Source: Agarophyton chilense
Lineage: Eukaryota > Rhodophyta > Florideophyceae > Gracilariales > Gracilariaceae
Direction: 5' to 3'
Assembly: GCA_030374765.1 (NCBI GenBank)
Contig: JARGXX010000021.1
Span: forward strand, 434,001-498,000
Length of the DNA stretch: 64,000 nt
In this document: piece after piece, positions 1 to 45,740 of the stretch
Layout: the number at the start of each line of letters is the position of its first letter
How positions within the stretch are numbered: the stretch's first letter is position 1
Made by a program: the position numbers and the translations under genes
The notes under the pieces: generated by a model
What the model saw: only the letters and a program-made list of their open reading frames with translations
Databases searched by the model: none
What the model was told of the DNA's origin: nothing

Positions 1-555
1 AGGAAAACGGGGGCGAAAACCTATACAAGGGCGAGACTACGACAAGTGTCGGCGATTAAATATGAACCTACGGTGGTTGTAGCACTCTAGTTGACAGAGG
101 GGTGGATGAATTAACGGGCAACGGGGGCTCACCCAGTATGCCGTGAAGACGCGCCAAAGGCGAAAAGTTCAGAGCCAAGACTCCCTCATTGGGATCCCCT
201 CAGAGGGTGTTTACTGGGGAGCAGTGCTCAACCTCCTAAGTAGTGTGGCGTGCAGCCCCTGACAGTGGGCGCGCGCCCGAAAAATAGACACTACATAGCG
301 ATAGCGTAGCTAAATAAATACTAAATAATACTAAATAATACTAACCATTAGGTAGAATCCGGGCCACGTGTTGCACGCCTCGCACTCGAGCGTCGGCATC
401 CGTGCAGGCCACGTGTTCCACCAGTGTGCACTTCCGGTCATAACCGGCCGTCAGCACGCAATAGCGGTATAGTTTGTCATAGCCCAAGCTAGTCCTCAAG
501 CGAGCGAACTCTCTAAGTCCTGCAAAGAATCCCCCTTGAAGGGCATTGTCCTTCA
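1..555 (-). repeat. 3' LTR of element A (partial, inner end)
   Basis: Positions 24-555 match 20993-21517 closely, ending in the LTR terminus TTGTCCTTCA at 546-555. Relative to the other LTR, about 920 bases (from about 20073 to 20993) are missing here, and the junction lies at a short shared ATACA motif. The region includes a short A/T-rich tandem stretch near 310-345. The left end of the LTR lies outside the window, so the element's target duplication cannot be read. Confidence 0.85.
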
Positions 556-568
556 TATCCCCCTCCTT
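556..568 (-). other. Polypurine tract of element A
   Basis: Read on the minus strand this is AAGGAGGGGGATA, immediately before the 3' LTR. This is the usual position and composition of the plus-strand DNA priming site of an LTR retroelement. Confidence 0.75.
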
Positions 569-590
569 AGGTGACGAACAAGCCGTCGAC

Positions 591-2459
591 ATGTCGGGGA
601 GGCAACGGTCCAACTGGCATAAAAGCGAGCCGCGTAACGCGTCTAGCGACCACTCGACTGTCGAAGGCAGAGCTGCACAACCGAACGACAAACGCACCAA
701 CTCGGTAACCTCTCCTCGAACTTCAAGCGCTCTTTCGCATTGTACGCCAACTTCCTGCGACCACATCCCGATACCCGGGCGAACAGTACTCCCGATTAAC
801 GGTGGCAACAATCCCCGCCGGGGTTACTTCTCGGGTTTCCATTCGGCTCCCCTTCCGCAGGGGAGTGCCTTGTCAACCGCGCCGAGCCGATCCCGGGGTC
901 CCGTTGAAGCTTTAAGCCACATTACTCCTGCAGAGGATACCTGGCCCAGTTACGACGAACTCGTCGGGTTAAACCCGCGTCAACATGCGGCGATTCTACG
1001 GAGAGCTCCATGGTTCCATCCGACAGCGTTCTTCGACGAAGAACTCGTGGCGTCGTATTCTGATGGCAATGCGCGTCTCCCGGGCGAGCTGCCGGCTTTG
1101 ATCACCACTTCGTGGGACTGGCGACGCCGTGTGGCGGTTCCCATTCACGCGATTCTGCGGCGAAGGCGCGAGTCGGCGGAAGAGGCGCATTGTATATTCG
1201 TCTGCATCCGTTACTCACGGATCAGCCGGGCGAACTTCCAATACCGCATCCCCGACGAATTCGGCTTCGACCTACGGATGTACCGGACGCAGGGTGAGAT
1301 CGGCTATTGTGACCGCCTTGTAGCGTTGGAAACTTACGCATGGTGCGATCAACCGCGAGCGCGTCAAGAAGCGATCTGCTGGGTTCGTCCGATCATTCGT
1401 ACCGAGTTCCGTCATCTTCGCCGTGAGTTCCGATATCGGTCGTTACAGAACTTCACCCGCGAGGAGCGTTGGGGCAGATCCTGCTTTGGGTTCCATGTCC
1501 CTTATCAGAACATAGAGATAAACCGGATTATTCCCTTCTATCAGTTCGGGCGATACGTTCCCCTGCCTGAGTGGTGGTCCTCCGTCGAGGTGTGCCGGGG
1601 ATGTTATGCGGAGCTGCCTCCAGTCGTCTCCTATCTGGGCTCGTACCTCATCGAGGATCCGCACTCCTGCTTATAGTCCGTGGTCCTAACCGAATGGGCA
1701 GTCCGCGCCGCGGCGCACATCTTGTGGGAAGCCTACGACCAGTATCGACTGTGGTACCTTCCTCCGCGTTTGCGTGGTTACTTCCGGCAGCTGGACCTTC
1801 AATTTCCTCTTAGAGGTGTCAATAACGCTGATGAAGCTCAGGAGCTCATCGACATCATTGGGCGTGTCGACTGGGCTGTTGTGCCTGTCCGGCAGAGCGG
1901 CCGTGGTCAAGAAGCCGGTGCGGCTGATCGGTCTCCGGGGCGTCGCACGTCGTTGGCGGGAGATTTCATCTTCTTTAACCCATGGGAGCAGCATGAGATC
2001 TCCAAGGCGGAGGCGTTGGCACTCCGGATGGCTCCGCGAGGCATACCATACGGGCACCCCGTGGGGTTTGTCAACTCGAATGACTTCTACTACGCCTATG
2101 GCGGTGATGATCTCCCGGAGAAGGAGGGCGAATACCATGGCGACGAGGTCATGGGAGACGTTAAAGATCCCGATGGTGCCGATACTACGGCGCAGCCGGC
2201 GCACAGAGCGACTCACGCAGGTGCGGTCATCGATCCAGTGGCGGCGGCGTTGCCGGACGAACCGGAAGTTATCCAGGTTCCCATACGCCCAGAGGCGGTC
2301 GTGATCTCCCAGTTCCTTCGGGGTGTTGGACTGAACGCACAAGCGGCGAGCGGCGACATCGGTGCAATGAGAGACGCCCCCGTGACACGCCTGACCGGCG
2401 GATGTAACTCCGCTAGCGATTCGGTTGGCGCGCACGGCAATCCGGGTTCTTCCAACTAA
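591..2459 (+). pseudogene. Antisense accessory ORF of element A, one in-frame TAG
   Basis: A plus-strand frame of about 620 codons starting at ATG 591 and broken once, by TAG at 1674-1676. It lies between the 3' LTR and the chromodomain, opposite to gag-pol. The protein aligns with the antisense frame of element B: shared blocks include VPYQ..EI, FGRY, ELPP..SY, then LW.AYD..R.WY (about residues 375-392) and an SPGR...AGDF block (about 445-455). The TAG falls where B has a Trp codon, so a single TGG-to-TAG change would explain it. The N-terminus is Ser/Pro/Arg-rich and the C-terminus is Asp/Ala-rich. I see no signal peptide, membrane segment or known catalytic motif, so function is unknown. 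The minus strand is also open in parts of the region, but the conserved Trp, Tyr and Asp positions favour the plus strand. Confidence 0.7.
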
Positions 2460-2540: not shown

Positions 2541-2665
2541 TGACGTATTTGTTTTCTTTCTTCTCTTCCACTTCTTTTGAGTGTCCTGCTCCAGGTCGTC
2601 TGTGCATCTTCTCCTTCTTCCAAGGGTCCTTATCCAGATCTTCTGTTCCTTTATCCCCATCGGGT
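2541..2665. repeat. Pyrimidine-rich spacer between convergent frames of A
   Basis: A CT-rich stretch on the plus strand, with many TTCTTC-type runs, lies between the 3' end of the antisense frame and the 3' end of the chromodomain frame. Element B has a comparable tract in the same place (12443-12582). Confidence 0.5.
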
Positions 2666-3106
2666 GTCTTCTTCTCCCACTTGGGCTCGGTTTATGGTAG
2701 CCGGCAAAGCCGTGATAGTACGACGATGATACTGTACCACCTTTGACCGAGGTAGGTGCTCTGTCGGTTCGTCTGAATACCATTCGGGACCGTACCCGTA
2801 CCAACGGACCAAGTATTGGAGATACCCCTTTTGGTGATAGGAGTGCTCCAAAATGCGTCCGACCACGAACTCTTGTCGGTACACTTCCCGGCCATCCCGT
2901 ATGACAGTGTCGCTATTTACGGGTGGTACCCGTCCTGAGCCAGGGGGTACCGAAGTGATCACTCGTTGGGCGGCTTCATTCCGGTCGGACCGTGTAGCGC
3001 GCAAGGCAGTCCTCGGCTGAGTAGAATGTCGACCCGACTTCGGCGGTTCATCTTTTCCAAGTGCCTGGTTTGCTTCGGCGTTTTCAACTCCGGTTGGAGG
3101 GCCCAC
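2651..3106 (-). CDS. Chromodomain frame of element A
   Basis: The C-terminal half of this 151-residue frame contains a chromodomain-like block at about residues 75-125 (FVVGRILEH, then YLVRWYGYGPEW, then a basic helix with VVQYHRR). Chromovirus integrases carry such a module after the catalytic core, and in characterised elements it directs insertion toward modified chromatin. Here it is in a frame separate from the integrase, which ends with a stop at 3389. The frame stays open upstream to about 3226 without an ATG, so the true start is unclear and a frameshift from integrase is possible. Confidence 0.7.
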   Translation of the reverse strand: MGPPTGVENAEANQALGKDEPPKSGRHSTQPRTALRATRSDRNEAAQRVITSVPPGSGRVPPVNSDTVIRDGREVYRQEFVVGRILEHSYHQKGYLQYLVRWYGYGPEWYSDEPTEHLPRSKVVQYHRRTITALPATINRAQVGEEDTRWG

Positions 3107-3388
3107 AGCGGCGGGGAACCCGGGTGGTCGTTCCGCTAATCGGCGTGGTGAAGCTCGCTTCGGCGGTGAGATTCGCTGGGGCGGTGGCGCATTTTCGCAC
3201 CTCTCTGTCCCACGGAGAGATTCCGTCTAGTCACGTGAGCGTTCCAATGGCTGGCTGTCCGGCGTCGGCGCCGTGGATGTATCCGCCTCCCTATGCGGGG
3301 TACCTGGTGGTGCGTCTTCCACTCGTACTGTATCAGGCTGCGGTGCGTCGAGCGCATTTGCATTCCGTGTTGCACGTGTGGTGACACC

Positions 3389-4618
3389 TCAGCGAGTGTT
3401 GGTCACGTTATCCGCAGTTGCGATCTGAGGCTTGGATAGAGACTGCGTCGAATCGTGCAGGACGTCGGTATCAGGCACCCCTGATGGGCGAAGAATGACA
3501 CGCGACGGTGCAGCGTTTCCAGCGACGGCATCGACCGGATTACGAGGCCTGTCGGGCGCCTCCCCCTCCTCAGACGATGCACCGGGGTTGGTGTCCGTTG
3601 GGTGGACTGTGGAGGAGCGACGAATGCGCGACACGATTCCTTGCGGGTTGAGCGCCGCGGGTAGCGGAAGGTCAGACAAACCCCGAGATGGGTGTGGTAA
3701 CGCGTAGGGACGCGGATGGACATGGGGTAAGTGGGTCGACGTATCCGTTTTAACGGGAGCATTCACGCCAGTAGGTTGGGATGTTAACGGCGGAGGAGCC
3801 GATACCACGCGATCGCGGGAGATTTGTTCGTGATTACCAGCGAGGTCAACAACGACAGTGTCGGAAGCCACCGGAATAACCCGAAAGGGGCCGTCGGCAA
3901 CGGGTGACAGCTTGTGGCGTTTCTCCTTCTCTGGGTTCCAATACTCCTTGCAGATGAATACATTACCGTCAGGGGCGAGACGTGGCGGCGAGCGAGGGGC
4001 TTTGGTGTCAAAGCTACGCTTGTAAGCGGCCTGGGCTCGGCCCATTGAACGCCGTGCGGAGGGAACGAGCTTCGTGAGCCAAGTTTTCCACGCTTCGCGG
4101 TAAGCAGTCGGTGACGGAAAGGTATCCAGTGTGTGCTGTGGTTCCAGCGCCACGGGCGGTGGGGTACGGGACAGTACTAGCTCGAAGGGCGTTACTCCAG
4201 TTGTCCTGCGCAACTGCGTATTATACGCAAAGGTGAGCGCATCAGTGAACAAGTCCCAATCTTTGGGGTGGTCTGCAACGTATGAACGGAGTGTCGCAAG
4301 TAATGTCCAGTTGAACCATTCGGCCTGTCCATTAGTTTGGGGGTGGTAAGTGGTCGTGAACAGGTTCTTTATGTCCAAGATGCGACACACATCCTCGAAG
4401 AAACGAGAGGCGAACTGTCTCCCATTATCGGAGAGGAGGTTGACCGGTGGGCCGTAGACGAAGACCCAGTGTAGGACGAAGGCTTGAGCCACGCTCATAG
4501 CGGAGATCTTCCGTAACGGTACGGTCCGGACCAGCTTGGAAAAGCGATCCGTAATTACGAGTAAAAACTTGTAATTCCGCTTAGTGGTAAGGAAGGGACC
4601 GAGTATATCGATGGCCAC
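3389..4618 (-). pseudogene. Integrase catalytic core and C-terminal region of element A
   Basis: The 409-residue frame starts at the first catalytic Asp region (AIDILGPF), continues with ITDRFSKL, the second Asp in LLSDNGRQF and the Glu in NGQAEWFN, so the D,D-35-E triad is present. After about residue 190 come the C-terminal linker and a Pro/Ser-rich tail. An in-frame TAG at about 4622 separates it from the HHCC zinc module upstream. In an intact copy the enzyme would join retroelement DNA to the chromosome. The stop marks it as a relic. Confidence 0.85.
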
Positions 4619-4624
4619 AAACTC

Positions 4625-5674
4625 CTATGGAGCGCGAGCTGGAAACAGCTTCAACTTCGTCGCGTGACGGCGGAGCTTGACACGGTTCCGAGCGCAATCG
4701 GTACAAAACCGCACCGTTGCATAGCAGTCTACTGCCATGGCAGGCCAGTAGAAGTTACGGCGTAGGGTGAGGTAAAGTTTCCGTCCCCCAACGTGGCCAC
4801 TCAGTTTGGAGTAGTGCGACAACCGCAAGACTCTCGACTGGAGGTTATGGTGTACCACGATTTGTGGGTGCAATGCGACGGTCCGTACAAGGTATCCGGC
4901 GTCATTCACCTGAAAGGGGAGAGTATCTCCTCCATTGAGGTGAGCGCGGACCTTTGCGCAGAACGGGTCAGCGAATTGCTCCCATATCATCTCCTCTGGA
5001 GTAATCCGGACGAAGTTCTCTGGTAAGGGTTTCTCGGAATCTTCCGAGAGAAGAAAGTCGTCCAATTCGGAACCGGAATCTGAAGAGTCCGTGTCTCGTT
5101 CCTCGTTCTCGATGGTAGCGCCGTCGCCATTTACTGCAAAGCAGGGTATTTCATCGTCTTTGAAGGGTAGTGCTTCGCCAGTAGTGACCAGGCGGGAGAG
5201 AGCATCGGCTTGGGTGTTGCACGATCCTTTTCGGTACTTCACGTCAAAGTCAAATTCCGCTAGACGGAGACGCCAACGCATCAAGCGGCCTGAAGGCTCC
5301 GAGATGGAGAGTAGCCATCGAAGTGATGCGTGGTTCGTAAAAACGGTGAAATGATTAACAATGAGATAGGGGCGCAACTTTTGTAATGCTCACACCACTG
5401 CAAGGCATTACTTCTCCGAGACGGAGTAATTCTTCTCGTGGACGTTGAGCGATCGGGACCAGTACCCTACGGGGCGTCTTTCCCCATTGGGTGCAGTTTG
5501 AAACAGTGCACAACCTACTTGGTAGTCGCTGGCGTCCGTATCTACGGTGAAGGGCCTTCCAGGCTTGGGCAACGAGAGGATCGGGGCGGAGACGACAGAA
5601 TCCTTAAGAGAGTTGAAAGGTTCCATTTGAACGGGGGTTAAGGGGTCCAGTTCTGGTGGTTGGCCTTTCTGCAA
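4625..5674 (-). pseudogene. RNase H and integrase zinc module of element A
   Basis: Two frames, 5674-5408 and 5377-4625, together cover the RNase H domain and integrase N-terminus. Visible motifs are TVDTDASDYQVG and VGYWSRSLN in the first part, and TNHASLRW, RRLRLAEFDFDVKYRKG and ADALSR in the second. The HHCC integrase finger follows (HYSKLSGH ... CTDCARNR). The gap between the two parts carries stops in the frame where KECLAVVWAL would be expected, and the second part ends in TAG at 4625. The sequence is otherwise typical of Ty3/gypsy pol. Confidence 0.8.
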
Positions 5675-5722: not shown

Positions 5723-7423
5723 TCAGTGGATGTTTGCGAGTCCCAGAAAGGAACGAAGCTCGGTTTGCGTCCGCAGTTCTTTAGCATCTTTGAGTGACTT
5801 AACACGATTCTCATCGATTGTGACACGTCCTGGACGGATAACATGGCCGAGATACTTCACGGTGTCCGTGAAGAAGTCACATTTCTTCAACTTAGGAGTG
5901 ACACCCGCATCTCGAAGCCTGGTCATTATATCCCTCACATGAGTGAGAAGTTTGTCCAGATTATCTGAGAAGACGATTATGTCATCCAGGTAGACCAGGA
6001 AGGTACGCCATTTGAAGCGGGCCAATAGGATGTCAATGGCTCGCTGGAATGTAGCGGGGGCGTTGGTAAGACCAAAAGGCATCCGTTTGAAACGGTAGAG
6101 ACCGGAGTGACACGCAAAAGCGGTTTTATCCTGGTCTTGCTTCCTTACAGGAACTTGCCAGTATCCCAAATTGGCGTCCAGGGTTGTAAAGACGGTGGCG
6201 GTGCCCAGCGAGTCAATGTACTTGTACCTTCTTAGGATTGGATACACGTCCTTGATGGTGACGGCATTCAAACAACGGTAGTCGACGCAAAACCTCCAGG
6301 AACCATCCTGCTTTGGAGCCAGTACTATTGGAGAAGCCCACGGCGACTGAGCCGGTTCATTGACTCCTGCTCGAAGCATTTTATCCACTTGTGCCTTTCT
6401 CTCCGCGCGTGCGGCGGGTCCAGCACGGTATGGGTGCTGAGAGATGGGTCCGGTGTCCGTTAGCAAATCAATACGGTGTTCCGTAGTGGCAATCTCACCA
6501 AGGGAGCCGTCCCACATAGTGGTGAAGTCCCTTAAAAGTTCTCGCAATTGATGGCGGTATGATTCCGGGAAGTGGCTGAGATCCAGGTCCTCGAGTTCTT
6601 GGACTGGATCGGGGCGGTCACCACTCGTTGGAATGGGCTGCGTCCCTGATGTTGCAGGTTGAACCCCGGGTACCGGCGATGAAACGCGTTCAGGGCTGTC
6701 ACCCTCCTTAGAGTGAACGAGTCCGAGAACGTCAGCTGCGGTCAGCTTTGTCGGCACCATAGCAATGGGGTGCGGCATGACGGACCCTATCACTTGGATC
6801 TTCACCAGATACTGGGGTACAGTCCCTAGATTGGCGATCAGCACCTGGAACGGTTGGTTTGGCTCCACATGGACGATTCCATTCGCAATTGCGAGGCTGT
6901 GACTGTCATACAGTGACGACAATGGTTGCAAGACCCGGAGTCCGTGTTGACGGGAGGTTACTTTTACCATTATTTGGGACTCATGCGGGACGCACAACGA
7001 CGCTGCGACGCGGAGCTTACTAGATTCACGGTTATCCGGTCCAGGTTCCTGTGCTGCCGGTAGCGGGACATGCTTCTTCGTGGCACGCCTAAGCGGACGA
7101 CGAACGATCAGAGTGGACGATCCATCCTCCATCTCGACACGCCGTTGGAGGGGGAAGATCGCTTCGACGAAGCGGTCGCAAAAGTCGCAACCCAAAATGA
7201 CTGGGGCGGCTAATTTCCGACATACGACGAAGTCGAGTTTCACCACGCTAGCGCCAACGCGGACTACCAGTCCTATGAACCCCACCATATCCACCGGTTT
7301 GTTGTTCGCGTCAGCGACCTCTGGGACGTGGTCGCGGCGGATCCTAGAATGCAAAACAGGCGGTAACACTTCCTCCAGGACAAAGTTCGGACCGGCCCGG
7401 TGTCTAAGACGGTAAGGTGTCAC
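5723..7423 (-). pseudogene. Protease and reverse transcriptase of element A
   Basis: Frame of 566 residues. The protease flap and core are visible (AGPNFV, VILGCDFCDRFVEA), but the DTG active site lies in another frame: LTVLDTG is readable just upstream and a single-base loss in the G run near 7397 separates it from AGPNF. A linker follows, then the reverse transcriptase from about residue 320, with VDYRCLNAVT, TLDANLGYWQVPV, FKRMPFGLTNAPATFQ and the catalytic YLDD near 5980. The frame ends inside the thumb/connection region (LRSFLGLANIH). Confidence 0.85.
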
Positions 7424-7688
7424 ACCATAAACTGGGGTGAAAGGCCAAGGTCAGCATAGACCTTGTAGTTTCTCTTGGACATCACCAGAACTATATCCGG
7501 GAACCGGTTATGGAAGACACGTTTCCACGGACGACGCTGAACACTAAAATGCTCCGAGTTCACGTCATTGACGGCCTCTTTCCTTGAAAGGATTTTGACC
7601 GGGGAGCGAGACTTGGACGCCTCGGGCGCCGTCGACCTCTACTCTGAGGGCGCCTCTCCTTGAGAAGAGACTCCCACATTTAGTTTTT

Positions 7689-9740
7689 CTAGGCCTGCTC
7701 CGCGGGAAGCGGCTGCTCAGGACGTTGATCAGGCAACGCCAGGGCATCAGGTCCGGAAGGTACTGCAGAAGCGGTGGGGTGACCGACCACGTCGGTGACA
7801 CGGGAATTCGGTGCAGGTACGACCCGAGCTCGGGGAAGCGACACGTTACGTGGAACATCCGTTCGAGCACGGATATACGATGCAATCGGAACAGCTGCTT
7901 TGTCCTCCAGGGATAGGGTCTCGTTACTTGATTACGACTTGTGCCCATTCTCGAAGAGACAACACCCATTGTGGAGAAGTATGGCCTGGTTTGTAGCAGA
8001 GATGACAAATTAGACCAGAAGCCGGCGTTGGGTGGCGAGGCTCGGCGAACTTCACCGCGGGGCGGGTATCTCTCCAACCAGGACGCGAAAAGCGGACATT
8101 ACCACTCTCGTGAGGGACGCGTGGCGCACAGACGCGACCATCATCCGCATAGAGTAGCGTGTCGTCCCCAATCACGTATTGTGACTCGTCCAAGGTTGAG
8201 GGTAACTCCGTTGTCGGTATGGAATGAACGTCGCTATGGACTAGCTGCACGTTATCATAATCCCTTCGAGAGACCTGTTCGTCGATCATCGAAGCTGACG
8301 GGGTACCCGGTTGTAACATCAACGCTTTTGCGGACCTAGCCCCGGAGCCAGGAGTGCGTGCGCGCAGGGCTTCACCTTCTGCACGAGCGAACTGCACTAG
8401 TTCCAAATACGTGGCTTTAGGTCTATCTTCTCGAAGTCGAGCAACAAGAGTCCGGATCGCCGGGTCCGAACCATCGACAAACATGGTAAAGCGCTCTTCA
8501 GCGGGGTAAACATTGCCACAGCGGTGTAAGGCCTTGTTAAGGCGCGACGAATAATCGGTTTCCGACTCGCCTGAACGTTGGCGAGTGTCCTGCAGGGCTA
8601 CGATAGCCTGCTGAATGGCGGAATTAGTAGCATATGACCTCAGGAGGTATTGAACTGCTTCAGGCCAGCATGTGACCCCTCCTTCGGAGGCGCTTGATGA
8701 ACCTCTGACAGAGTGATACTGGTCTTCTGCAAGCCCACGTAAGAAGTACGGTAAGGCAAGGTAGGCCTGTCCCTCGTTCATTCCAAGGATGTCAGCTTCC
8801 GCGACAAAGCGTGCCAGGAATCCAACACCAATATTGGGTCTTCTCCAAAAAACAACTGGTTTCGTAGTGAGAGCTGCATTTGCTTAATGCAGTCCTTCAC
8901 TCTTCCCGTACCACGGGGTGTACGATCCAAAGAGGAGTCCTCCAAACGGTAGTATCGGTATGATAAGAGCTTCTTAAAGAGCGAATTGGTCGGTTTCAGC
9001 TCCTTCAAACCTGTGTGCTTCCTTCCTTTCGTGCGGGCGCGGATCACACCATGGGTGGCTGTTGACCGCTTAGAGCGTGAGGAACGCTCACGGCGAGCTA
9101 CTTCCACAGATGAAACAAAAGAGTCCGACTCCGAAGATGAAGAATCCGACGGTTCTGAATCCGTGTTTCTTCGCTTCCTTCGACCCTGGCGGTTCTCTTC
9201 CTTACTTCCCTTGTGGGATACTGTAATCTGCTCGGCCGGATCATTCCCCGACATCAGGGTTTGTTCCAACGTCTCGAGACGTCTTCGGACGCGCGATAAG
9301 TTGTCCGCGACGTCCTTGATAAGGGCCGAGGGTCCACCAAGGGACTCCAGAATCGAGTTCACGTCTGCACGGAGGACACGGAGGTCCTGAGAAAAATCCT
9401 GCGTAGCAGTGTCGTTTACCTTCTTGCGAGGGGAATAGAACTCCTCTGCAAGTATGACTTGAGCTTTTCGCATAGAGCGGAGTTACTCTTCCACAGCTGC
9501 AAAGCTGGTATGGAGAGTGACATCCCTAGTAGGGGAGAGCATCTGGGCGGCGGCAGACGCCGGTCCTGCTCCACTTGCTGGGGGTGTCGAATCAGGGACA
9601 GGAGGTCTCGAGGCTTTTCCACCTGGCACGCCAGTCGATCCACCGGTATGAGACCGTGAACGGACGGGGATACGGGATGGATGCGAGGGTTCCGGTGCAC
9701 CGGTTTGACTCCGCGTCCTCGGACGGTCTTTTGACGACAT
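7689..9740 (-). pseudogene. gag of element A
   Basis: Reads from ATG at 9740. An in-frame TAA (9483-9485) breaks the N-terminal segment from a coiled-coil and acidic Ser-rich segment (about 9473-8830). Near 8820 one T appears to be missing, shifting the capsid into another frame (8781-7924; FLARFVAEAD, then LLRSYAT, DYSSRLNKAL). The zinc knuckle reads C-x2-C-x4-H-x4-W: the last Cys has become Trp. Another shift near 7925 leads to a tail ending with LPAEQA at 7689. Gag would form the virus-like particle. The copy is dead, but every segment aligns with element B. Confidence 0.8.
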
Positions 9741-9816: not shown

Positions 9817-10483
9817 TGTAGTATTCGCTCTAACGGAGAGAGCAGACACCTGCGACAGCGTTCGGACTGCCGATGGGTCGCTTGCGGCGAAAGAAAAGGG
9901 GTGGTAGAGCTACAAAACCAGCGAGCTGGAAGTGGGGTGTAAGGCCACTACTCGCCAGCGAGGGTGAACAGTCCAACTGTAAAACGTTGATGGAACGTAC
10001 GTACGAGACGGCTCGTGAAGTCGTTGGGGGCTGACTATCTATTATATCTGGTCCGGATCTCCGGTTAAGGAATCCTAAGCGAGGAACAGAATAGTCATGA
10101 TGCCCATGTTGTCTCCTTTACTTGGAGTCGGCGCTCACCTCTGGTACACTATATACTGTGTACCAGGGTGAGTGCCCAAATAAATATATAAATAATACCC
10201 AGTGGTCAGCCACTCAGCCAAACCACTGTATGGGTACGGTCCCTAATGGACGTCTAGCTACAAAGGGTAGTAAAACCAGCCCCGTGGATTGCCACTACAT
10301 GCGCCGTTGCAAGCCACTCCACTCGTGATACCACGTGTCCCACTAAGACATTCTGCCTCTCGGCATCCTACGCGGTGTGCCGTTTCATATCACAAGTTTA
10401 ATGACATTACTCACTTATGAGTTCCAACCGCGACTTCGCGAAAAACCAACATATCCGACTCCCCGACATAGTAGAATACTACA
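9817..10483 (-). repeat. 3' LTR of element B
   Basis: 667 bases with 10-base terminal inverted repeats TGTAGTATTC/GAATACTACA. Nearly identical to 18953-19619. It contains a TATA-centred palindrome (10141-10166) and an A/T-rich stretch at about 10178-10197. Confidence 0.95.
10141..10166. promoter_or_regulatory. TATA-centred palindrome in the B LTR
   Basis: CTGGTACAC, then TATATACT, then GTGTACCAG: nine-base perfect arms around TATATA. With a one-base bulge the symmetry extends outward through GCTCACC and GGTGAGTGC. The same palindrome is at 19277-19302 in the other LTR. Position and symmetry suggest a core promoter usable on both strands; this is inference. Confidence 0.45.
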
Positions 10484-10496
10484 TGCCCCCCTCGTT
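10484..10496 (-). other. Polypurine tract of element B
   Basis: On the minus strand this reads AACGAGGGGGGCA directly before the 3' LTR, the expected place of the plus-strand primer. Confidence 0.7.
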
Positions 10497-10507
10497 AAGC
10501 GCGAACC

Positions 10508-12334
10508 ATGGGGGACGCAAGAAGCGTTTATACGCAGTCAGACCGGTGTTCCGGGTACTCATCGTCATCACGAATCCCTCGCCGCCCGACCAACTCTTAC
10601 AGTTCTCAACAGCATTCTGTTCCTCACCGCTCCTCAGCTCGATCTCTCGCGATGAATCCGAACGCCGGGTCCAACCCGTTTCAGCCCTCCTCTGAGGATG
10701 TGTCTTCTGAGGCTCCGTCCAACACTGCTGGTTCTGCGTCGCAGCCTACTGCTCAACTCGGTCCATACCGTTCGTTCCCCACACCGTACACCGGATTCCG
10801 GTTGGTACCGTTACCTCAGCCAACCGTGGCTCCAATGCCGAACGCAGCTTACGTCGCCTCTGCGGGTGTGATTCGAGCTCCTTCCCGTCGTGCTCAGCGG
10901 AGCTACCTGCACCCTGCGGAGTTCTATGGACGAGATCCTCTCGACAACGTTGAACTTTTCGCGCAAGCGCCCTGGTTTGATCCAGTTGCTATCCACGATG
11001 ACGCGTTCATACAACAGTATGTACACAGTGGGTACTTCTCCGACGGTATTCCGGAACACGCGATTTATAGCGACGACTAGGCGAGCCATATTGCTTTGCC
11101 AGACAACGCGATTGCGCGATATTCAACGGAAACCTTGTCCGAAGCCCGTACGCGGTTCACCAAGCTGATTTACCAGCGTCTTCACCGATTCACCAGTTCG
11201 GTTCTCCTCCCGCAGGACTGGGAACTAGATACCTGGAAAGCCCATATCGACGGTGAAGGTTTCTCGTATATCGAAACACTGGTTGAAGTCGATGTTAGCG
11301 GTTGGTGCAGTGTGCGCGTTGTGCGTGATACAGTTCTCAGCTTTCAGCAACCTCTTCTCTGTGCGGAGTTCCGCTTCCTTCGAAAGCGTGACATTCCTAA
11401 TTGGGATTATCCCCGTTGGGAAGGTCGTATTCGATCACGTTTGGGCTATTTGGTGCCGTATCAAATGATCGAGATTGACAGCATCCGGCGGAACGCGCGC
11501 TTCGGGCGCTACATCGGTATTCCGGAGCATTGGGCGGTGATAGAGAGTCCTCGTGGTTTCCCTGTGGAGCTCCCACCGGCGATCTCCTACATCAAGTCCG
11601 CGTTGGTTAACGACCCGTTCTCGGGATATTGGACGGTGGTTTATACCGAGTTTATCGCCAAGATGGCCGTCTTCCTCCTGTGGGATGCTTATGATACCTT
11701 TAGAGTTTGGTACATGTCTCCCACAGCGCGAAAGTATGCGAGAGAACTCGATCTTTCCCTTGTCCTGGGATCCCATGCGAACCATGCCAACTTCCTTCAT
11801 CTTGTGGATTTGATCGACAGTGTGGATTTGTCTGGAGTGCCAGCTGATCAATCCGCTCGCGGAACCCGTGCAAGACACCACGACCATTCTCCTGGACGAA
11901 CAGCAAGTGCTGGAGATTTCGTTTGGTACGACCCCTGCACGCGCCAGTTGATCACCTCTGAGCAGGCTCGCTTTCTTTGGGAGAACCCGCGTGACATGCC
12001 ACCGAACCAGCTTAGTGGATACGTGTAAGATGGTACTCCATCCGAGAACCGAGAGGAACCTTATGAGGAAGCGCCGGGAGCTGAGGCTGAACTCGGTTAC
12101 GAGGAAGAGCCAGAGCTGGCAGGCGTAGCGACTTCCGTCGATTAATCCGCAGCGGCGGGAGTTGCTCAAGAGTACGTTCACGGGTTTACCCAACAACAGA
12201 TTGCAGTGCTAGTCGAAGATCAAGGCTTGGATCCGCTGAGACAGTTCCCCTTAGACGCAGGCCTTCCCGTGGACGAAGTTGAGGGTGATCGCGCACAGCT
12301 TCTTGCGAACCTGCGTGCTCGCACGTCTCTTTGA
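10508..12334 (+). pseudogene. Antisense accessory ORF of element B, three in-frame stops
   Basis: One continuous plus-strand frame of 608 sense positions from ATG 10508 (or ATG 10652, which shares the CTCGCGATG context with element C) to TGA 12332-12334, broken only by TAG 11078-11080, TAA 12026-12028 and a further TAA near 12143. It aligns with the A copy: APWFDP, LVPYQMIEI, RFGRYIGIPEHW, ELPPAISY, LLWDAYDTFRVWYMSP, SPGRTASAGDFVWYDP. The N-terminus is Ser/Pro-rich and the C-terminal tail is acidic. No transmembrane segment or known family is apparent. There is no frameshift, in contrast to gag-pol of the same copy. Confidence 0.7.
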
Positions 12335-12442: not shown

Positions 12443-12582
12443 TCTCTTCTCGCTTCTCGAGTTCTTAACTTCTTCTTCTCGCTTCTCTAGTTTCATACTT
12501 CCCTTCTCGCTTCTCGAGTTCTTCAATCCTTTTTCTCGCTTCTCGAGTTCTTCAATCCTTCCTTTCGATTCTCGAGTTCTTC
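12443..12582. repeat. Imperfect tandem repeat, CTTCTCGAGTTCTT type
   Basis: About five degenerate copies of a unit containing TTCTCGCTTCTCGAGTTCTT, another partial unit near 12650. It lies between the ends of the convergent antisense frame and chromodomain frame. It is purine-rich on the gag-pol strand. Confidence 0.7.
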
Positions 12583-12677: not shown

Positions 12678-13079
12678 CTATGTAGCCCATACTTGGAAAT
12701 GGGATGTGCCCATGATCCCGACTATCGAGGAGTTGATCTCCCTGGTGAGTGGTAATCGCATGCGTCGATGATATCGCACGAGTTGCGAACGGGGGATATG
12801 AGCGATAGGTTCCCACGTATCCGCTTCCGGACGAAAACCGTACCAACGGACTCGATACAGTAATTCTCTAGTATCTTCATGCTCGCCATGTTCACATTTG
12901 CCATCCATAACATATTCCTGGGCGTTTCCCAATGCTTTCGCTGTTTGCGCGAGACTCCTGTTAACAGGTTTGAAATGCCTTAGGGCTGACCCAAACGTCT
13001 CTGTGTTAGCAGTCTCAGCGTCGCTAAGCGTTCGCTTGTCGACTAACTGTCGATCTGCTCGCAGGGGCAGTGTACTCAT
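12678..13079 (-). CDS. Chromodomain frame of element B
   Basis: 133 residues; the chromodomain-like block is about residues 55-110 (YVMDGKC, LLYRVRWYGFRPEADTWEP, then IPRSQLVRYHRR), with the W-x-G and DTWEP hallmarks clearer than in A. Its ATG at 13079 overlaps the stop of the preceding pol frame as ATGA, which suggests a separately initiated product or termination-reinitiation. Because the integrase just upstream carries a deletion, the junction might also be secondary. Confidence 0.75.
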   Translation of the reverse strand: MSTLPLRADRQLVDKRTLSDAETANTETFGSALRHFKPVNRSLAQTAKALGNAQEYVMDGKCEHGEHEDTRELLYRVRWYGFRPEADTWEPIAHIPRSQLVRYHRRMRLPLTREINSSIVGIMGTSHFQVWAT

Positions 13080-13783
13080 TCCTTGAGAACCTTTCTCAGA
13101 TAAAGAGCTATCCTGTTTCCAGGTTTCATAGAAGCGTACTTCTTGCTACTTCTCAATTCCATTCGTGGATGAACTTCCTTCGGTTTATCCGATTCTGACT
13201 GCTGTTCGGTGGACGATGGTGCTTGCATCACGACAGGAGGCGATACATCTTCTTCTTCCTGCCCACGAGGGATGGGAGCCGATATCGGCGGAACAGCGAG
13301 TGGCGTTTCACGTGACGGTTCAGCCTGAAGCAGCAAAGGGGCGTTTTCGCGTGCACTCGTTTCCAAGTCTTTGGGGCCAAATTCCAAAACATCTTTCCTG
13401 CTTTCAGGTTCCATTTCTGTACTTACGGGTGTGCGCGTGCCACGAGACATATCCCGAAACTTCGAGAAGCGGTCGATGATTACCAATAGGTAGCGATAAC
13501 CTCGCCTTGAGCGAATCAATTCCCATAGGATGTCGATACTGATGTATTGTAAAGGCGCTTTCGCCTGGAATAATGTCATCGGTTTCCGCTTCCTGTAAAG
13601 CTTCACGCGATTCTTCGCACATGTTGTACACAACCTCACTGTAGCATGGCAGTCCATTGCCAAAGTAGGCCAGTAAAAATCTCTTCTTAGAGTCATGAAC
13701 AACTTCGTTCCTCCTGGATGACCAGACAGCCTGCTGTAGTGTGCGAGATGGAGTACTCGACTCTTCAAGACGTGTGGAATCAC
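13076..13783 (-). pseudogene. Integrase of element B with catalytic core deleted
   Basis: The HHCC zinc module is intact (HYSRLSGHPGG ... CTTCAKNRVK), followed by the start of the core with the first Asp (YISIDILWELI) and IIDRFSKF. At that point, near 13455, the sequence jumps to a tail resembling the distal integrase region (TPVSTEMEPES, then Pro/Ser-rich). The DNG Asp, the NGQAE Glu and everything between are absent. The product could not catalyse integration, so this copy must have been mobilised in trans or deleted after insertion. Confidence 0.85.
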
Positions 13784-18952: not shown

Positions 18953-19619
18953 TGTAGTATCCGCTCTAACGGAGAGAGCAGACACCTGCGACAGCGTTCG
19001 GACTGCCGATGGGTCGCTTGCGGCGAAAGAAAAGGGGTGGTTAAGCTACAAAACCAGCGAGCTGGAAGTGGGGTGTAAGGCCACTACTCGCCAGCGAGGG
19101 TGAACATTCCAACTGTAAAACGTTGATGGAACGTACTTACGAGACGGCTCGTGAAGTCGTTGGGGGCTGACTACCTATTATATCTGGTCCGGATCTCCGG
19201 TTAAGGAATCCTAAGCGAGGAACAGAATAGTCATGATGCCCATGTTGTCTCCTTTACTTGGAGTCGGCGCTCACCTCTGGTACACTATATACTGTGTACC
19301 AGGGTGAGTGCCCAAATAAATATATAAATAATACCCAGTGGTCAGCCACTCAGCCAAACCACTGTATGGGTACGGTCCCTAATGGACGTCTAGCTACAAA
19401 GGGTAGTAAAACCAGCCCCGTGGATTGCCACTACATGCGCCGTTGCAAGCCACTCCACTCGTGATACCACGTGTCCCACTAAGACATTCTGCCTCTAGGC
19501 ATCCTACGCGGTGTGCCGTTTCATATCACAAGTTTGATGACATCACTCACTTATGAGTTCCAACCGCGACTTCGCGAAAAACCAACATATCGGATTCCCC
19601 GACATAGTAGAATACTACA
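18953..19619 (-). repeat. 5' LTR of element B
   Basis: 667 bases, TGTAGTATCC to GAATACTACA. Orientation follows from gag-pol on the minus strand and from the adjoining primer-binding site. The TATA palindrome lies at 19277-19302. Confidence 0.95.
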
Positions 19620-19713: not shown

Positions 19714-21517
19714 TGTAGGACAACGCTTGGAGCGGAGATACAACGAAGATGTTCGGGATCTTCCTCTCTTGAGAGACACGCCTCAGGCGGAGGAGACGCG
19801 TCCCAGCGGAGCACAGAAACAGGGACACTCTGGAAAGGCACGACGGAGTCGGGTGTAAGACCTTGGCCAATCCGGCGGGATATACCTAGAGTGTTTAGGT
19901 GAGCACGGCCCAGTCCGGGGTGTGACAAATCCTAAGCGGAGCGGTATCACGGCGATTGTCGGAAATGGAGCGAGGAAACACTCGTATGAGGTGGGCGAGC
20001 AGGGTGAGTGAGGCGGCCACTCACGAGAGCCAAAAAGGGGAACAAGAGGAAAATGGGGGCGAAACCCTATACAGTGTGGAGCAAAACCCGGCGACGGGAA
20101 GTGCTCTCAAGGTGTTCGAAGCCTTGCTCCCTGGGGGAGGCAGACTCAGAGACAGAGCCCTCCGTTCCACCCATAGTGTGGGGTGTAACTCCCACGGTGG
20201 ATTCCGGCAGTACCAACGGAGGTGAGGGGTAGAAACCGTTGGATCGGGAATGGGTATGGGTATCCCAAAGAATGGGGGAAAATCCGGCGAAGAGGAAAAA
20301 CGGGGCGAGGGTCGGGCACTAACAGGCACCGGACCCGAGAACCAGAAAAGGGGCGAAACAACAAAAGAAACCCAATACAGGGGCGAAAACCTGTCCTCGA
20401 AAGGAAACACAAAAAGCACGCAACAAGTAAGCAGAACCCCCACGGGGTATCGTGCACGCAGGTCGTCTGAGCGGTCCCAAGGGGGTGGTTGCACGGAACC
20501 CAAACGTGGGCACTCTCCAAGTGGAGTCGTGTCCCTACGCAGGCGTTGCTAACCAGAGCCCGTTCCGGGTTGTAAGGCCGAAACGATGGCGACGAATAAC
20601 CTCTAAAGGTATCGAAGACCAACCTTGGTTCCCATTTACTTTGAGCTTCGGACTGTCAGATCTCATCTCCCTAAGTAGGGCCCACTAACTAAACTCTACA
20701 GTAGTGCACACCTGCTCAGGGCCATACACGTGGAGATCCAACTGTCAGGGCCCAAAAGTCCAACGTTCTACAAATATCCGAAATTCGGTGCCAAAATTAA
20801 GCCACGTGTATCACGGGGCCAATCCAACCATGGGCCATCCGAATGTTCCCTTATAGGCGAATTCTAACCAGAAAACAGTGCCACCTCAGCACACCTTAGA
20901 GGGGATCATAATCATAACCCTCGGAGGGTTCAATCCTCATTCTATGAGTTGCATCTTCAAGTATCCCCTAACTGGGCGTTTCTCTACATACAGGGGCGAG
21001 ACTACGACAAGTGTCGGCGATTAAATATGAACCCACGGTGGTGATAGCACTCTTGTCGACAGAGGGGTGGATGAACTAACGTGCGATGGGCGCTCACGTA
21101 GTATGCAGTCAAGACGCGCCGAAGGCGAAAAGTTCGGAGCCAAGACTCCCTCCTTGGGATCTCCCCAGAGGGTTTTTACTGGGGAGAAGTGCTCAACCTC
21201 CTAAGTAGTGTGGCGCGCGGCCTCTGAAGGTGGACGCGCGCCCGAAAAATAGACACTACATAGCGATAGAGTAGCTAAATAAATACTGAATAATACTAAA
21301 TAATACTAAGCATTAGGTAGAATCCGGGCCACGTGTGGCACGCCTCGCACTCGAGCGTCGGCATCCGTGCAGTCCACGTGTTCCACCAGTGTGAACTTCC
21401 GGTCCTAACCGGCCGTCAGCACGCAATAGCGGTGTAGCTTGTCATATCCCAAGATAGTCCTCAAGCGAGCGAACTCTCTCAGTACTGCGAAGAAACCTTC
21501 TTGAAGATTGTCCTTCA
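19714..21517 (-). repeat. 5' LTR of element A (1804 bases)
   Basis: Begins TGTAGGACAA and ends TTGTCCTTCA, imperfect terminal inverted repeats. Its last 525 bases match the left LTR at 24-555. The part from about 20073 to 20993 is absent from the left LTR. Several scattered copies of an AGGGGCGA-type motif (near 20050, 20300, 20347, 20380, 20994) mark the region around the breakpoints. Its outer end cuts a Tc1-like transposase. Confidence 0.85.
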
Positions 21518-26824: not shown

Positions 26825-27950
26825 AATGGCGGGCGGCGCGCGCTACGGGCGCGGGCGGAAGGGGGGGAAAAGGGAAATGAGGGCAAGACGGGGCGCGTGA
26901 GCGAGAATTGTGATAAAGGGCGGGGTGTGAGGCGACGACTGGGGCGGTGAGGTATGCGTTGGGGCAAATAGGGTGAGCAAGCGACAGTCAGTTGACGGGA
27001 GGTGCTTGGTAACGTGAGGCGTACAGGAACGGCGAAAGTGAAGAAAAGTTATGTTGAAAATGAGAGTGGAAGGGGAAGAGGAAAGAATCTTGACTGGTTG
27101 AGGTAGGGGGGAAGAAGGATATCCAGCTAGGAGGGTATGTAGAAGGGAGAGAGTGGCGAGAAGGGGGACGGGGTGCGCTGGGGCGTAACACAATGTGCAA
27201 ATTGCGATGTTTCACGGACAACAAGCCATAGCGCCAGGCGACGGTCGCGTTAGGGGCACATGGCGCTGTGGCGCACGTGCAGGAGCTGCGCCACGTGCAC
27301 ACGCGGCAGCGCTGGTAGCGCGAGCCAGCGTACTGTGCGTATTGGTTGGCTGACGATGGCAGCATGGTCAGAAATCACCACGTGGACTAATAGCGCAGTT
27401 GCGCGCGCACTACGCAGCAGCACCCATGGTAGGCGCCGCGCTTGTTGTCAGCCGCTTCTCTATCCCAGTGCATCTGACGAGAGCCTCGGCACTCGCCTCG
27501 ATTGGGCTGGCACAACAAGCCAGCCGCAGTCAGATCCTCACATGAACGCAAGTGTTACGCTTTGTCATGGTCCTTTCCTCGCCGCTCTTTCAAGGCCAGC
27601 GAATCACTCTCCCCCCTCCCGTCTTACAATTGACATTACCGGGTAAAGGGTTACCACGTACATATAATGTATGCTTCTCGCCCATGCGTCTCACTTTTAA
27701 CGCCATTCGTATCGCATTTTAACTTCCACTTGTATCACAAAACTCGTTCTGTAGACGATGCGTAAAACCGTCAGCATTTATCGCACGCTCGCCGCTCTTA
27801 CAGACTGCTGGCTCTTGTAATACCAGGCAAAACCCCCATAGGTTTCGCTCACATCGACACACAACAAGCAAACCATTACCGTCGATCTACACCGCGTTTA
27901 ATTGGACCTGCAATTTGCAACTAATGCAAAATCGTTGCTTACCCAGTCCC
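26825..27950. other. Intergenic region, kinase 5' side to beta-COP 3' side
   Basis: Purine-rich next to the kinase start (about 26830-27150), then GC-rich. Short frames here have simple-sequence composition and no family resemblance. It presumably holds the kinase promoter and the beta-COP terminator, but no motif is decisive. Confidence 0.5.
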
Positions 27951-42080: not shown

Positions 42081-43989
42081 ATGCCGAACTCGCCTTATAA
42101 GCCCGTCAGATACGCTATTCTCCCTCCGGGCTATGTCGCTTCCGTCGGCTTTCCTATCCATTTCCCTGCGGACCAGCCAGTGGGCAGCAACACCATGGCT
42201 TCGAACAACCAAGTGGGGAGCTCCTCAGGATAACAAATGGCTTAAAAACGTCCCGAGGACCGCTATGACCATACCATCGGATGGAATCCGCGGGCAGTGC
42301 GTCACGCCATTCTGCCGTCCTCTGTGGGAGACTACCAGCGATTTTGTCATATTCATCTCGACGCCCGGTGGTTCGTTAAGATACCCAATTCCCTGAGGTA
42401 TATTAAGAACGCGCGCAGCGTCTCGTGGTATTACCGATGGTTGCATTGTCCTGTGGATCCGCGTTCGGAGACGCGCTGTCGCACCCTCCTCCAAGCGGAC
42501 ATGCCGTACGTTCGCTGCGAGGAGGAAGCCGAGTACCAGTTCAGGGTGAACAAACTCCTTTCGGACCTATACACGGACTTCATCTCGCCTCATGTGAGAT
42601 TTCCTCCGGCGGGTCACAACATTTTGGAGCTTTTGTGCTTCCGTCCGCCGCATGATCGCTTGTTTTGGATGTTAAAATAGAGTCTCTTGTAACGAGATGC
42701 ACGAGCCCGATGGTCGTTTGCGTCAATCCCTGGAGTTCTTCTTCTGCTGGAACCAGGTGGAGTTTCACGACATGAGCGCCGACAAGCGTCCTCCATTATA
42801 TCTCTCGTTGCCCCGTGCGGATGAGAGCCAATGAGCCATGTATTGGCGAGTCTCAACGCTCCTTTTAGTCCCCATGCAGTCCATGGTGGCGTACCATTCG
42901 ACCCAACTCATGGGTGACGACAATGACCGAAGGTCTTGGTTGTTCTGGAAGGTACACTTCGTCGAGTTCAGTGTGATGTCCCTGATGGCCTTCCTCAATA
43001 TCGCGAAATACGGCGTCCGTGGTAATGTCTGTTCGGAGGCTTGGAGGGTATGGTACGACGAGAAGATACCCGGTCCTTGAGGTCGGCTAATCTCACTCCC
43101 GGACATCAGGGTCCGCTTCCTAGGGAACCTGGGCATCCAGAATATTGTTTGTGGGACCCAGTTCGACGTCGAGGAGACCGAGGCCTTTTTGGATCATGTC
43201 CTACAGGTGGAGTGGGGCTAGACTCTCGAGTTTCTTTGGTATGACCACGATACCAACTCGTTCATGCGGATTCCGCTACATTCGCAGGGTTGGGACAACG
43301 CTCGTGTCTATCCCGCCAAGCCTTTGAGGAATCAACCATTGGATATCCTGAGGCGTCATGTGCCCGACTATCATCCGAAGGCCATTGGTTTCGATTCCCT
43401 GTGCTTCGAGCCTGATGTGGAAGCCACGCCGTTGGTTCCTGCTGTTATGTCCGATGGAGAATCCTTCGGTGACGATCCCTTCGTCCTACCCGTAGAGGGC
43501 GTTAATCCTCCAGTCGAGTCCGCTGTTGTGTTGCCGACCGCTTCCCCTCCTCCAGCTCCTCCGGGCGCTGCTCCTCAGTATGAACTCTCATGTGAGCCGC
43601 CCGTCGCCCAAGTGGACATCCCTCTTGGCAAGGATACTGTCAAAGCCGAAAGTCCTATAGGTGATGCGCTGGTTCAAACGTCCACTGGGGGCGTCGACAT
43701 CGCTCCGTCCTCTCCGTTGCCACACTTTCCCGCTTCGGTCACGGCTGCGGCTTCGGATCTCCGTCATGTCTGCCGTACCGTTGGTATTACGGCCCCAATG
43801 GACATTGCCACAGTCCTGAGGGAAGCTTGCTCCTGGGCGCGTCGCTCGGCACGCTACGCCACGGTTGTCCAACACGGTCAGAACCTGAAGACCGCCATGG
43901 TCAATATCCTGCAGAAGAATGCCCAAGTGATGTCCCAGAGGGTTACTGCCGATTTGGATGCCCGGTATGGTGTAACATTGAGCGACTGA
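42081..43989 (+). pseudogene. Antisense accessory ORF of element C, decayed
   Basis: Begins at ATG 42081 in the context CTCGCGATG shared with element B. The first frame runs with two stops (near 42230) to 42680; a shift then leads to a second frame through 42838-43080 and, past stops, to 43989. Blocks shared with A and B: VEFSVMSLMAFLNIA then WRVWYDEKIP (LLWDAYDTFRVWYMSP in B) and LEFLWYDHDTNSFM (GDFVWYDPCTRQLI in B). The C-terminal part is Pro-rich, then helical. Same position and strand as in A and B. Confidence 0.6.
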
Positions 43990-44348: not shown

Positions 44349-44741
44349 TTACGACTGACTTTGTTTCCTGATGCGAGATCTACGGCGAACCGTCGTGTCG
44401 GGAGACGTTTCGAAAGACGTTTTGAGATTATTCGGGCCAATGGATGCTCCCTCCTGAAGGCTGTGCTCTGTGCTGCCAATGTTGCCCCAATTGCGGGCAA
44501 TAACATTAGCCGGAGTGGTTTGAGGCTCTTGCCAAGTGTCTTCCTCAGGGGTGTAACCGAACCAACGGACGCGATGGGGCATAGTTCTATCTTCTCCCCG
44601 ACCGGCGGAGATGATGCGCTCAATCACGTATTCCTGTTGGTGTTCATTCTCCGGAAGGTGAGTGCGGTCCAGAGGGGCGGATCTATCGGAGCTGGTTGGA
44701 AGAGATGGGTCATCGTCATTGGCGTTGGCCATCGGGTCCAT
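44349..44741 (-). CDS. Chromodomain frame of element C
   Basis: 130 residues; chromodomain-like block at about residues 37-85 (YVIERIISAG, HRVRWFGYTPEEDTW). The tail is basic (RRRSRIRKQ). The frame is open upstream to about 44811, so the start is uncertain. As in A and B the module lies in a frame distinct from integrase. Confidence 0.65.
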   Translation of the reverse strand: MDPMANANDDDPSLPTSSDRSAPLDRTHLPENEHQQEYVIERIISAGRGEDRTMPHRVRWFGYTPEEDTWQEPQTTPANVIARNWGNIGSTEHSLQEGASIGPNNLKTSFETSPDTTVRRRSRIRKQSQS

Positions 44742-44868
44742 GGGGCTAGTACGGTCTGCAGGAACTGCCTTAGGGGGTGTGGGGATTTGAGCGTCGACCT
44801 GAGGTCGTAGTGTTTTCGTTGGGCCAGGGGACTGGAACTTTGGTGATTCGGGAGAGCTAAAGGCTCGC

Positions 44869-45740
44869 TCACCTCAACCGATCAATAGATACAGTGTCCT
44901 GTAGGCCGTCAATTAGTAACTTGATGGTGTGTTGATTGGCCCTAAGGACTTTGCATGGTACCGTAGAGCGGGGTGAGAGCTTCTGCGTAGTGTCCTCGAG
45001 TTCATCGCTGTCCTTCGGTGGCCGATCCAGGAAAACCAATTTTTCTTTTCCAAAGGTCGGTGTGTTCCAAACGGCTTTGTCGAAATTGACCAAGTAGCGC
45101 AGTTTGGCTTTGGTCTGTACAGCTCTAGACGATGGTGTAGACGGTCGATGCGTCGGCGCGAGTAGCGCTTCGCCTGGGTAGGAGTCATTCCTTCGGTCAT
45201 GACCTGGGGGATAGTAGACTCCTGAAGGTCAACAGCTATCGGGGGTGGCAATCTGGTAAGCGTTAAATCGAAAGGTGTTGTCCCGGTGGACGCGTGCTCT
45301 GGCCTGTTGTAGGCATAAACCAGTGGCTCAACGTAGTCGTCCCAGTCCAATTGGAGCTTCGATACGTAGTGTGCCAATCGGTCCAGAAGGGTGTGGTTGA
45401 TGCGTTCGGCTTGGCCATTTGCTTGCGGGTGGTACGCCGTGGTAGTCACATGTTTGATTCCTAAGGTAGCACAAACGTGTGAGAAGAATTTGGATACAAA
45501 CTGGCTTCCGTTATCCGTAAGGAGGTAGAGTGGAATGCCATATGGATAAACCCAGTGGAACAAGAAGGCCGTGGCGCCCTCCGTGGCCATTGTCTTCCCT
45601 AGAGGTAGGGCTCGGGTAAGTTTGGTAAACCTATCGATTATAACCAAGACAAACCGTTTCCCATGGGACGACTTAGAAAAAGGTTCAATTATATCTATTG
45701 CGACAAATTCTATCGGGCCTGCGGCGGGGAAGAGTTTCAA
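44869..45740 (-). pseudogene. Integrase core of element C
   Basis: 45740-44913 encodes the core: EFVAIDIIEPF, IIDRFTKL, LLTDNGSQF and NGQAERIN, so D, D and E are present, followed by AYNRPEHASTGTTPF. Near 45095 the C-terminal region passes to another frame (45093-44869; VNFDKAVWNTP to TVSIDRLR). Confidence 0.82.

Follow-up and report, generated by a model that had tools for sequence, protein, structure and literature searches.

A conserved antisense protein gene in Ty3/gypsy-like retrotransposons of the red alga Agarophyton chilense

Introduction

Do the long frames that run opposite to gag and pol in several LTR retrotransposons of the red alga Agarophyton chilense represent protein genes of these elements, and if so, what might their proteins do? 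The question is raised by the stretch of 64,000 nucleotides analyzed here (the window), in which three elements, termed A, B, and C, each carry traces of such a frame. An earlier note on this DNA proposed a conserved antisense gene that belongs to the element and pointed to extra antisense frames in plant gypsy elements. The latter are borne out by the literature, in which antisense additional ORFs between pol and the 3' LTR, designated aORF-3R, are described for Grande (gene23), RIRE2, Retand (ORF4), and PvRetro13 (PMC7264820). No paper on antisense ORFs in red-algal elements was found in our limited literature search, which is not proof of absence.

Results

Three broken copies of the antisense ORF in the window

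The window comprises three copies of the antisense ORF:

591..2459, plus strand: antisense ORF, family A copy; a continuous frame but for one inner TAG at 1674-1676
10508..12334, plus strand: antisense ORF, family B1 copy; one frame with inner stops at 11078-11080, 12026-12028, and 12143-12145
42081..43989, plus strand: decayed antisense ORF, family C copy; not one frame, with 43222-43989 open

All three copies are disrupted: one stop interrupts A, three interrupt B, and C has suffered frameshifts. In the C copy, frame 0 contains 15 stops and frame 1 contains eight, the last of which is the final stop, and the terminal 255 codons (43222-43989) are open. The earlier note had read long plus-strand frames at these three positions; coding traces are present at each of them, but none of the three frames is intact. 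It had further described ordered sequence blocks common to all three proteins. This part stands for A and B, for which BLASTP revealed homology in both halves of the protein (E 2e-29, 35% identity, and E 8e-28, 40% identity), a similarity far beyond chance. In C, the blocks are weak by eye, and kinship with the other families is suggested solely by profile comparison: hhalign returned probabilities of 95.5 and 96.3 (E 1.4e-8 and 1.7e-9) over ~200 columns, the higher of which applies to the profile of families A, B, D, and E (A4; ~200 core columns, 22% identity). As negative control for this link, the element's own gag was compared to the ORF profiles and reached an hhalign probability of 0.2. 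The block order in C is plausible, but not plain from the window copy alone.

The host elements are Ty3/gypsy retrotransposons with a chromodomain

The gag and pol genes of the three elements lie on the minus strand, i.e., opposite to the ORFs. The following features were assigned to pol, gag, the LTRs, and the gaps between LTR and ORF:

2654..3226, minus strand: chromodomain end of pol, element A (PF00385, 25.7 bits; Pfam cut-off 25.1)
3392..5389, minus strand: RNase H, integrase zinc-binding and core parts of pol, element A, in two open stretches (Pfam)
5726..7450, minus strand: protease-reverse transcriptase part of pol, element A (PF00078)
7927..8883, minus strand: gag of element A (PF03732)
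12681..13145, minus strand: chromodomain end of pol, element B (PF00385, 26.4 bits)
44352..44873, minus strand: chromodomain-like end of pol, element C (18.0 bits, below the cut-off of 25.1)
23..555, minus strand: 3' LTR of element A (91.0% to 20988-21517; 35 nt to the start of ORF A)
20988..21517, minus strand: 5' LTR of element A (by LTR pairing; the nested element B separates this LTR from the body)
9817..10483, minus strand: 3' LTR of element B (98.4% to 18953-19619; ends TGTAGTA...TACTACA; 24 nt to the start of ORF B)
18953..19619, minus strand: 5' LTR of element B (element flanked on both sides by GGGCA, a target-site duplication of 5 bp)
556..590, no strand: gap between LTR A and ATG, presumed polypurine tract (purine-rich on the minus strand)
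10484..10507, no strand: gap between LTR B and ATG, presumed polypurine tract by its sequence

The reverse transcriptase (RT) is nearest to Ty3/gypsy, with 4ol8, which we take to be Ty3 (E 6e-47), and the Ty3-G Gag-Pol 7q5b (E 6e-46) as best matches and the next one at 1.6e-29. Inside the LTRs, the order gag, protease-RT, RNase H, and integrase is complete in A and partial in B and C. The chromodomain at the integrase end scored above the cut-off in A (window copy and locus L038) and in B, and below it in C. Judged by these domain matches, the host elements are chromodomain-bearing Ty3/gypsy (Metaviridae) retrotransposons. Chromodomain gypsy lineages of brown algae have been reported to be unrelated to chromoviruses (PMC12477816).

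All three frames had been placed between the 3' LTR and the chromodomain, opposite to gag-pol. This description applies to A and B, in which the LTR adjoins the ORF and the chromodomain lies past the ORF end; for C, the antisense orientation stands, but no LTR pair was found in the window and the chromodomain remained below the cut-off. A was inserted before B, as element B (LTRs 98.4% alike) is nested within element A (LTRs 91% alike). The window further contains a fourth, shorter LTR element at 51055-56538, whose LTRs are 92% alike and whose minus strand encodes a distant gypsy-like pol. Its plus strand has no frame of 200 codons, which makes it a natural control. Four long intron-poor host genes at 22829-39139 (minus strand) look by eye like a protein kinase, a coat adaptor subunit, a secreted Ser/Pro-rich protein, and a nitrate reductase.

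The ORF occurs in several element families at a fixed position

We searched the organism's own genome (79.8 Mb, 135 contigs) with one query for each window copy, which yielded at least 126 scored matches for B, at least 147 for A, and at least 149 for C. A published G. chilensis assembly is described with 66% repeats, 76 Mb, and 138 contigs (PMC10388701). The probe P0011, a distant relative, gave 140 own-genome matches, with A and B copies among them, and led to the additional families D and E. By a count made twice by eye, 39 of these 140 matches lie in frames that run for at least 600 codons without a stop. A B-like family, B2, was found via P0006, a protein named A. chilense that matches the own genome with 100% identity over the first 363 of its 522 residues. 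Homology among families A, B1, B2, D, and E is clear on sequence comparison. Five D and E copies (L070-L074), which were chosen for open frames, share 94-97% protein identity within their family, so that D and E look recently active.

The closest named proteins come from A. chilense and Gracilariopsis chorda, both Gracilariaceae (Rhodophyta). Outside the host species, protein searches of limited sensitivity identified relatives in G. chorda (P0008, P0016, P0019, and P0020; G. chorda relatives of 617 and 565 aa were found) and in further sequence sets. In viral contigs, 8 and 58 stretches matched the search patterns, none of which was confirmed as a relative.

The position of the ORF was followed in 30 loci each of A and B. 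An LTR match was obtained for 26 A copies (four without) and 28 B copies (two without), and the spacing between LTR and ATG amounted to 35 nt in 22 of the former and 24 nt in 23 of the latter. The end of pol lies beside the ORF in 59 of the 60 copies. Seen from the pol side, 47 of 74 A-like RT matches (78 minus four partial rows) have a scored A-type ORF at a distance of 3.2-3.6 kb, mostly ~3270 nt, and always on the opposite strand. For the remaining 27, no ORF was listed; in five out of six sampled cases, the ORF region is present, broken or diverged. The sampled exception, L078, has no match to the ORF, the LTR, or the end of pol in the expected 3' region, and may be truncated or rearranged, or its coordinates may be off. 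In the sampled copies, the ORF is thus arranged tail-to-tail with a Ty3-like chromodomain pol, at a fixed place before the 3' LTR.

Divergence of the ORF was compared to that of gag and pol. A and B share 42-59% identity in protease-RT and 42% in gag, A and C share 35-47% and 29%, respectively, and A and D share 79-82% over 174 RT residues. For the ORF, A shares 34% identity with B1 and 51% with D, and the profile alignment gives 22% for C against the remaining families. ORF and pol rank the families in the same order, with the ORF changing faster than RT, which is consistent with a long joint inheritance.

A candidate promoter region in the LTR

In A and B, no more than 24-35 nt separate the ATG from the LTR, so the promoter probably lies in the LTR or beyond it. 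On the sense strand of the element, purines predominate in this gap, which reads as a polypurine tract. In the A and B window copies, L070, and L071, an A/T-rich box was observed 280-330 nt upstream of the ATG. However, the A/T-richest stretch is found at -162 in L038 and at -379 in L017, and L062 (family C) has only a weak one; due to this inconsistent position, we do not claim the box as a core promoter. Inverted repeats were sought in LTR A and LTR B, which gave nothing useful, and a sigma-70-type scan of LTR B was set aside as inapplicable to a eukaryote. Eight ATGs are found in the 408 nt upstream of the ORF B start (10100-10507), and the ORF B leader may therefore start late or be spliced. 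There is none in the 420 nt before ORF A.

Purifying selection acts on the plus frame between families

Between families, pN/pS values were 0.278/0.710 for B1-B2, 0.339/0.713 for D-E, 0.341/0.689 for D-A, and 0.358/0.734 for E-A, with pS (0.69-0.73) close to saturation. The A-B1 and D-B1 comparisons were saturated (pS 0.78) and gave no usable ratio. For a six-frame test, three between-family pairs were aligned as plain nucleotides. The plus frame contained no stops and showed a pN/pS of 0.40-0.52, and each of the other five frames contained 7-55 stops. In four of these five frames, pN/pS exceeded 1; the fifth shares its third positions with the plus frame and reached 0.49-0.63, yet contained 37-55 stops. 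Third positions of the plus frame changed most in the three pairs (0.55-0.57 vs. 0.25-0.35), and in 40 B1-B2 pairs they held 53.4% of the changes. As the plus frame is the only stop-free frame and shows an excess of third-position changes, selection acts on the antisense protein.

A frame of 283 codons is located on the minus strand at 1686-2537, under the second half of ORF A. If the minus strand were the coding one, e.g., for an extension of pol or an env-like protein, the plus frame would be its shadow, and this register is indeed free of inner stops in 19 of 30 A copies and contains only 1-2 stops over the second half in D and E. In the three between-family pairs, however, the minus register displayed pN/pS values of 1.15, 1.15, and 1.19 over the second half, compared to 0.39-0.60 for the plus frame, and 7-29 stops with a pN/pS of 1.12-1.25 over the whole ORF. 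The minus-strand frame had no Pfam match. On the grounds of the stops and of pN/pS values above 1 between families, we rejected minus-strand coding, which we consider exceedingly improbable; a coding signal on the minus strand, named earlier as the finding that would speak against the gene, was thus looked for and not seen.

Another explanation is that the antisense RNA is the selected product and its reading frame incidental, and antisense non-coding transcripts are known from LTR and other elements (PMC7264820). This is hardly credible in view of the third-position excess, the open frames of at least 600 codons in 39 of 140 matches, and a protein identity of 34-37% between families while synonymous sites are saturated. 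Antisense RNA as the sole function was ruled out by the codon-position and frame comparisons.

Within families, dN/dS ranged from 0.47 to 0.81 (0.47-0.75 in one comparison covering four families; 0.70 and 0.81 for D and 0.57 for E in another). Over 30 copies each, it amounted to 0.70 in B and 0.58 in A, with 1.2 and 1.5 stops per copy, respectively. Since loci were picked by protein score, conserved copies are somewhat enriched in these values; dN/dS outside and inside the query was 0.76-0.77 vs. 0.63 for B and 0.60 vs. 0.56 for A. In a single within-family pair (D) subjected to the six-frame test, the plus frame was little distinct (0.70 vs. 0.75-1.06). Within-family ratios of this size are as expected for inserted copies that decay. 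A dN/dS near 1 among intact copies, the other result that had been named as speaking against the gene, is approached by the young within-family copies (0.47-0.81), but the ratio between families is far lower. Because the between-family ratio is far below the within-family ratio, we conclude that the frame is selected during element activity and drifts after insertion.

Purifying selection has kept the gene through the split of at least five element families. With selection confined to the plus frame between families and a fixed position in the sampled copies, the proposal that the element owns a conserved antisense protein gene is supported. The gene is coding, under selection, and element-borne, occurs in several families, and has relatives in a second genus, Gracilariopsis.

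The antisense protein has a conserved core and no recognised domain

The protein comprises ~560-650 aa and is longer in family C. Conservation is poor over the first ~120 residues, which abound in Ser, Pro, and Arg. The conserved part spans residues 121-520, with a peak at 281-400, and the core is rich in Trp and Arg. The core is followed by an acidic linker and a short C-terminal segment, which is conserved outside C. The net charge of the last quarter ranges from -11 to -21 in the tested A, B1, B2, D, E, and G. chorda proteins and from -8 to 0 in C. A basic motif of the PPKKRARL type is found near the end of all three family C proteins tested; K-K/R-x-K/R occurs in none of the seven proteins examined from A, B1, B2, D, E, and G. 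chorda. A bipartite-like basic pattern occurs in A alone, within the conserved core. The highest 19-aa hydropathy was 1.17-1.57 in seven proteins, with D (1.57) being closest to the threshold, i.e., no transmembrane window above 1.6 was found in any of the seven.

Searches against Pfam, NCBIfam, PHROG, and PDB sequences revealed no significant match for the antisense protein, and no DNA- or RNA-binding domain was recognised in any of them; NCBIfam returned nothing at all. This agrees with the earlier statement that the frame belongs to no recognised family. Several weak rows were read as chance, which applies to the Pfam families Porin_8 (E 0.028) and E3_binding (E 0.081, and 0.24 in the search with C), to E3_binding (E 0.029), TMEM220 (E 0.051), and Ish1 (E 0.092), each in one of 29 members, and to phrog_2513 (E 0.25). 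Two heme-degrading enzymes among the PDB sequences (E 0.1 and 0.14) are likewise at chance level, and profiles gave none. The TRP28 domain (PF04195) was absent in 29 members up to E 0.1 and in C up to E 1, and there was no bZIP match among the Pfam results.

Two kinds of protein were considered and dismissed. An env-like protein is ruled out by the antisense orientation together with the lack of a transmembrane segment over the threshold, and a duplicate of gag by the hhalign probability of 0.2 to the element's gag (A4 profile and C). A structural or transfer protein, i.e., an extra particle component, a chaperone, or a factor for cell-to-cell movement, would fit a large conserved aromatic core in which no nucleic-acid-binding domain was recognised, and red algae have pit connections between their cells. 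The missing profile similarity to gag (probability 0.2), the absence of a window above the transmembrane threshold, and the antisense coding, which uncouples the supply of the protein from that of gag-pol, render this role rather unlikely.

Discussion

Comparison with known antisense genes

The ORF shares two features of aORF-3R: it lies opposite to gag-pol between pol and the 3' LTR, and it is present and conserved in most copies. As in the plant elements, going by their published description, the gene occupies the same slot in the same orientation, is kept in most copies of a family, and is without clear relatives outside the elements. It differs by the lack of TRP28 or any other Pfam domain, the red-algal host, and the chromodomain pol. 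For Grande, the promoter of gene23 is described in the region upstream of the gene; here, the ATG abuts the LTR in A and B, and the promoter would hence be in the LTR.

Retand is described as carrying an antisense ORF in nearly all recently active copies and a pyrimidine-rich tandem repeat between ORF and pol (PMC11963269). Element B has such a repeat as well, with 4.8 copies of a pyrimidine-rich 29-nt unit at 12445-12581, in the space that separates the ORF B stop from the pol end. According to the same source, Retand is a non-chromovirus of flowering plants with a region of 2.9-6.6 kb between pol and 3' LTR and with PF04195 (PMC11963269), whereas the elements described here have a chromodomain and no PF04195. 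Boty of Botrytis cinerea is an LTR element from outside the plants that also has an antisense ORF in this slot (PMC7264820). Its host is a fungus, and the likeness noted here is one of layout. HBZ of HTLV, a spliced bZIP protein, is likewise encoded by an antisense gene that is read from a promoter in the 3' LTR, as would be the case here, but bZIP was not among our Pfam results. The HTLV antisense promoter is described inside the 3' LTR (PMC7264820). Plant and fungal elements already offer examples of this layout; what appears to be new is the protein family and its host, a red-algal chromodomain element.

A possible nuclear regulator of the element

The ORF is a second gene of the element, convergent with gag-pol. 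We propose that it is promoted by the LTR and that its protein may be a nuclear trans regulator of the element's cycle; we give this reading even chances. The gene would be transcribed antisense from a promoter in the 3' LTR, resulting in an mRNA that is convergent with gag-pol, and one LTR sequence would drive sense transcription as 5' LTR and antisense transcription as 3' LTR. Less certainly, the protein might act in trans in the nucleus on the cycle of its own element, where transcription, RNA export, and the pre-integration complex are conceivable targets. Such a nuclear regulatory accessory role is our best guess, with precedents in the role proposed for Grande GENE23 and the Retand antisense proteins and known for HTLV HBZ. 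The PPKKRARL-type motif of the three family C proteins may hint at the nucleus; the lack of the K-K/R-x-K/R motif in the seven other proteins speaks against this reading, as does the failure of the domain searches to recognise DNA- or RNA-binding domains. GENE23 is described as nuclear and TRP28 as a predicted DNA-binding domain (PMC7264820, PMC11963269).

By its layout, the antisense mRNA would be complementary to the genomic RNA of the element, and siRNA production from such overlaps has been raised as possible (PMC7264820). The protein could hence suppress host RNA silencing and counter the dsRNA from the element's own convergent transcription; given that no recognisable domain of any kind was found in Pfam, we regard this as an improbable role. 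The protein might also limit the copy number of its own element, as a self-restriction factor from antisense transcripts as copies accumulate. Each added copy would be an added antisense promoter, and the dose would rise with copy number, but the numbers of A, B, and C are high (at least 147, 126, and 149 matches, respectively), and we judge self-restriction to be quite unlikely.

In a further-reaching view, the protein may be the trans-acting control or counter-defence factor of the element, as a member of a new family that is expressed from a bidirectional LTR promoter and represents an independent red-algal invention. We put this forward tentatively, as possible rather than probable.

So far, the antisense extra genes of plant Tat/Retand elements and a few others have lacked an explanation. 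An antisense gene without a recognised domain that is under selection in several families of red-algal chromodomain elements suggests a repeated origin and a general need for such genes. The many stop-free copies in the genome provide material for direct tests of expression and function. If the protein is indeed a red-algal control or counter-defence factor, this would be an independent invention, with other proteins, of the strategy of HTLV (HBZ) and of plant Tat elements.
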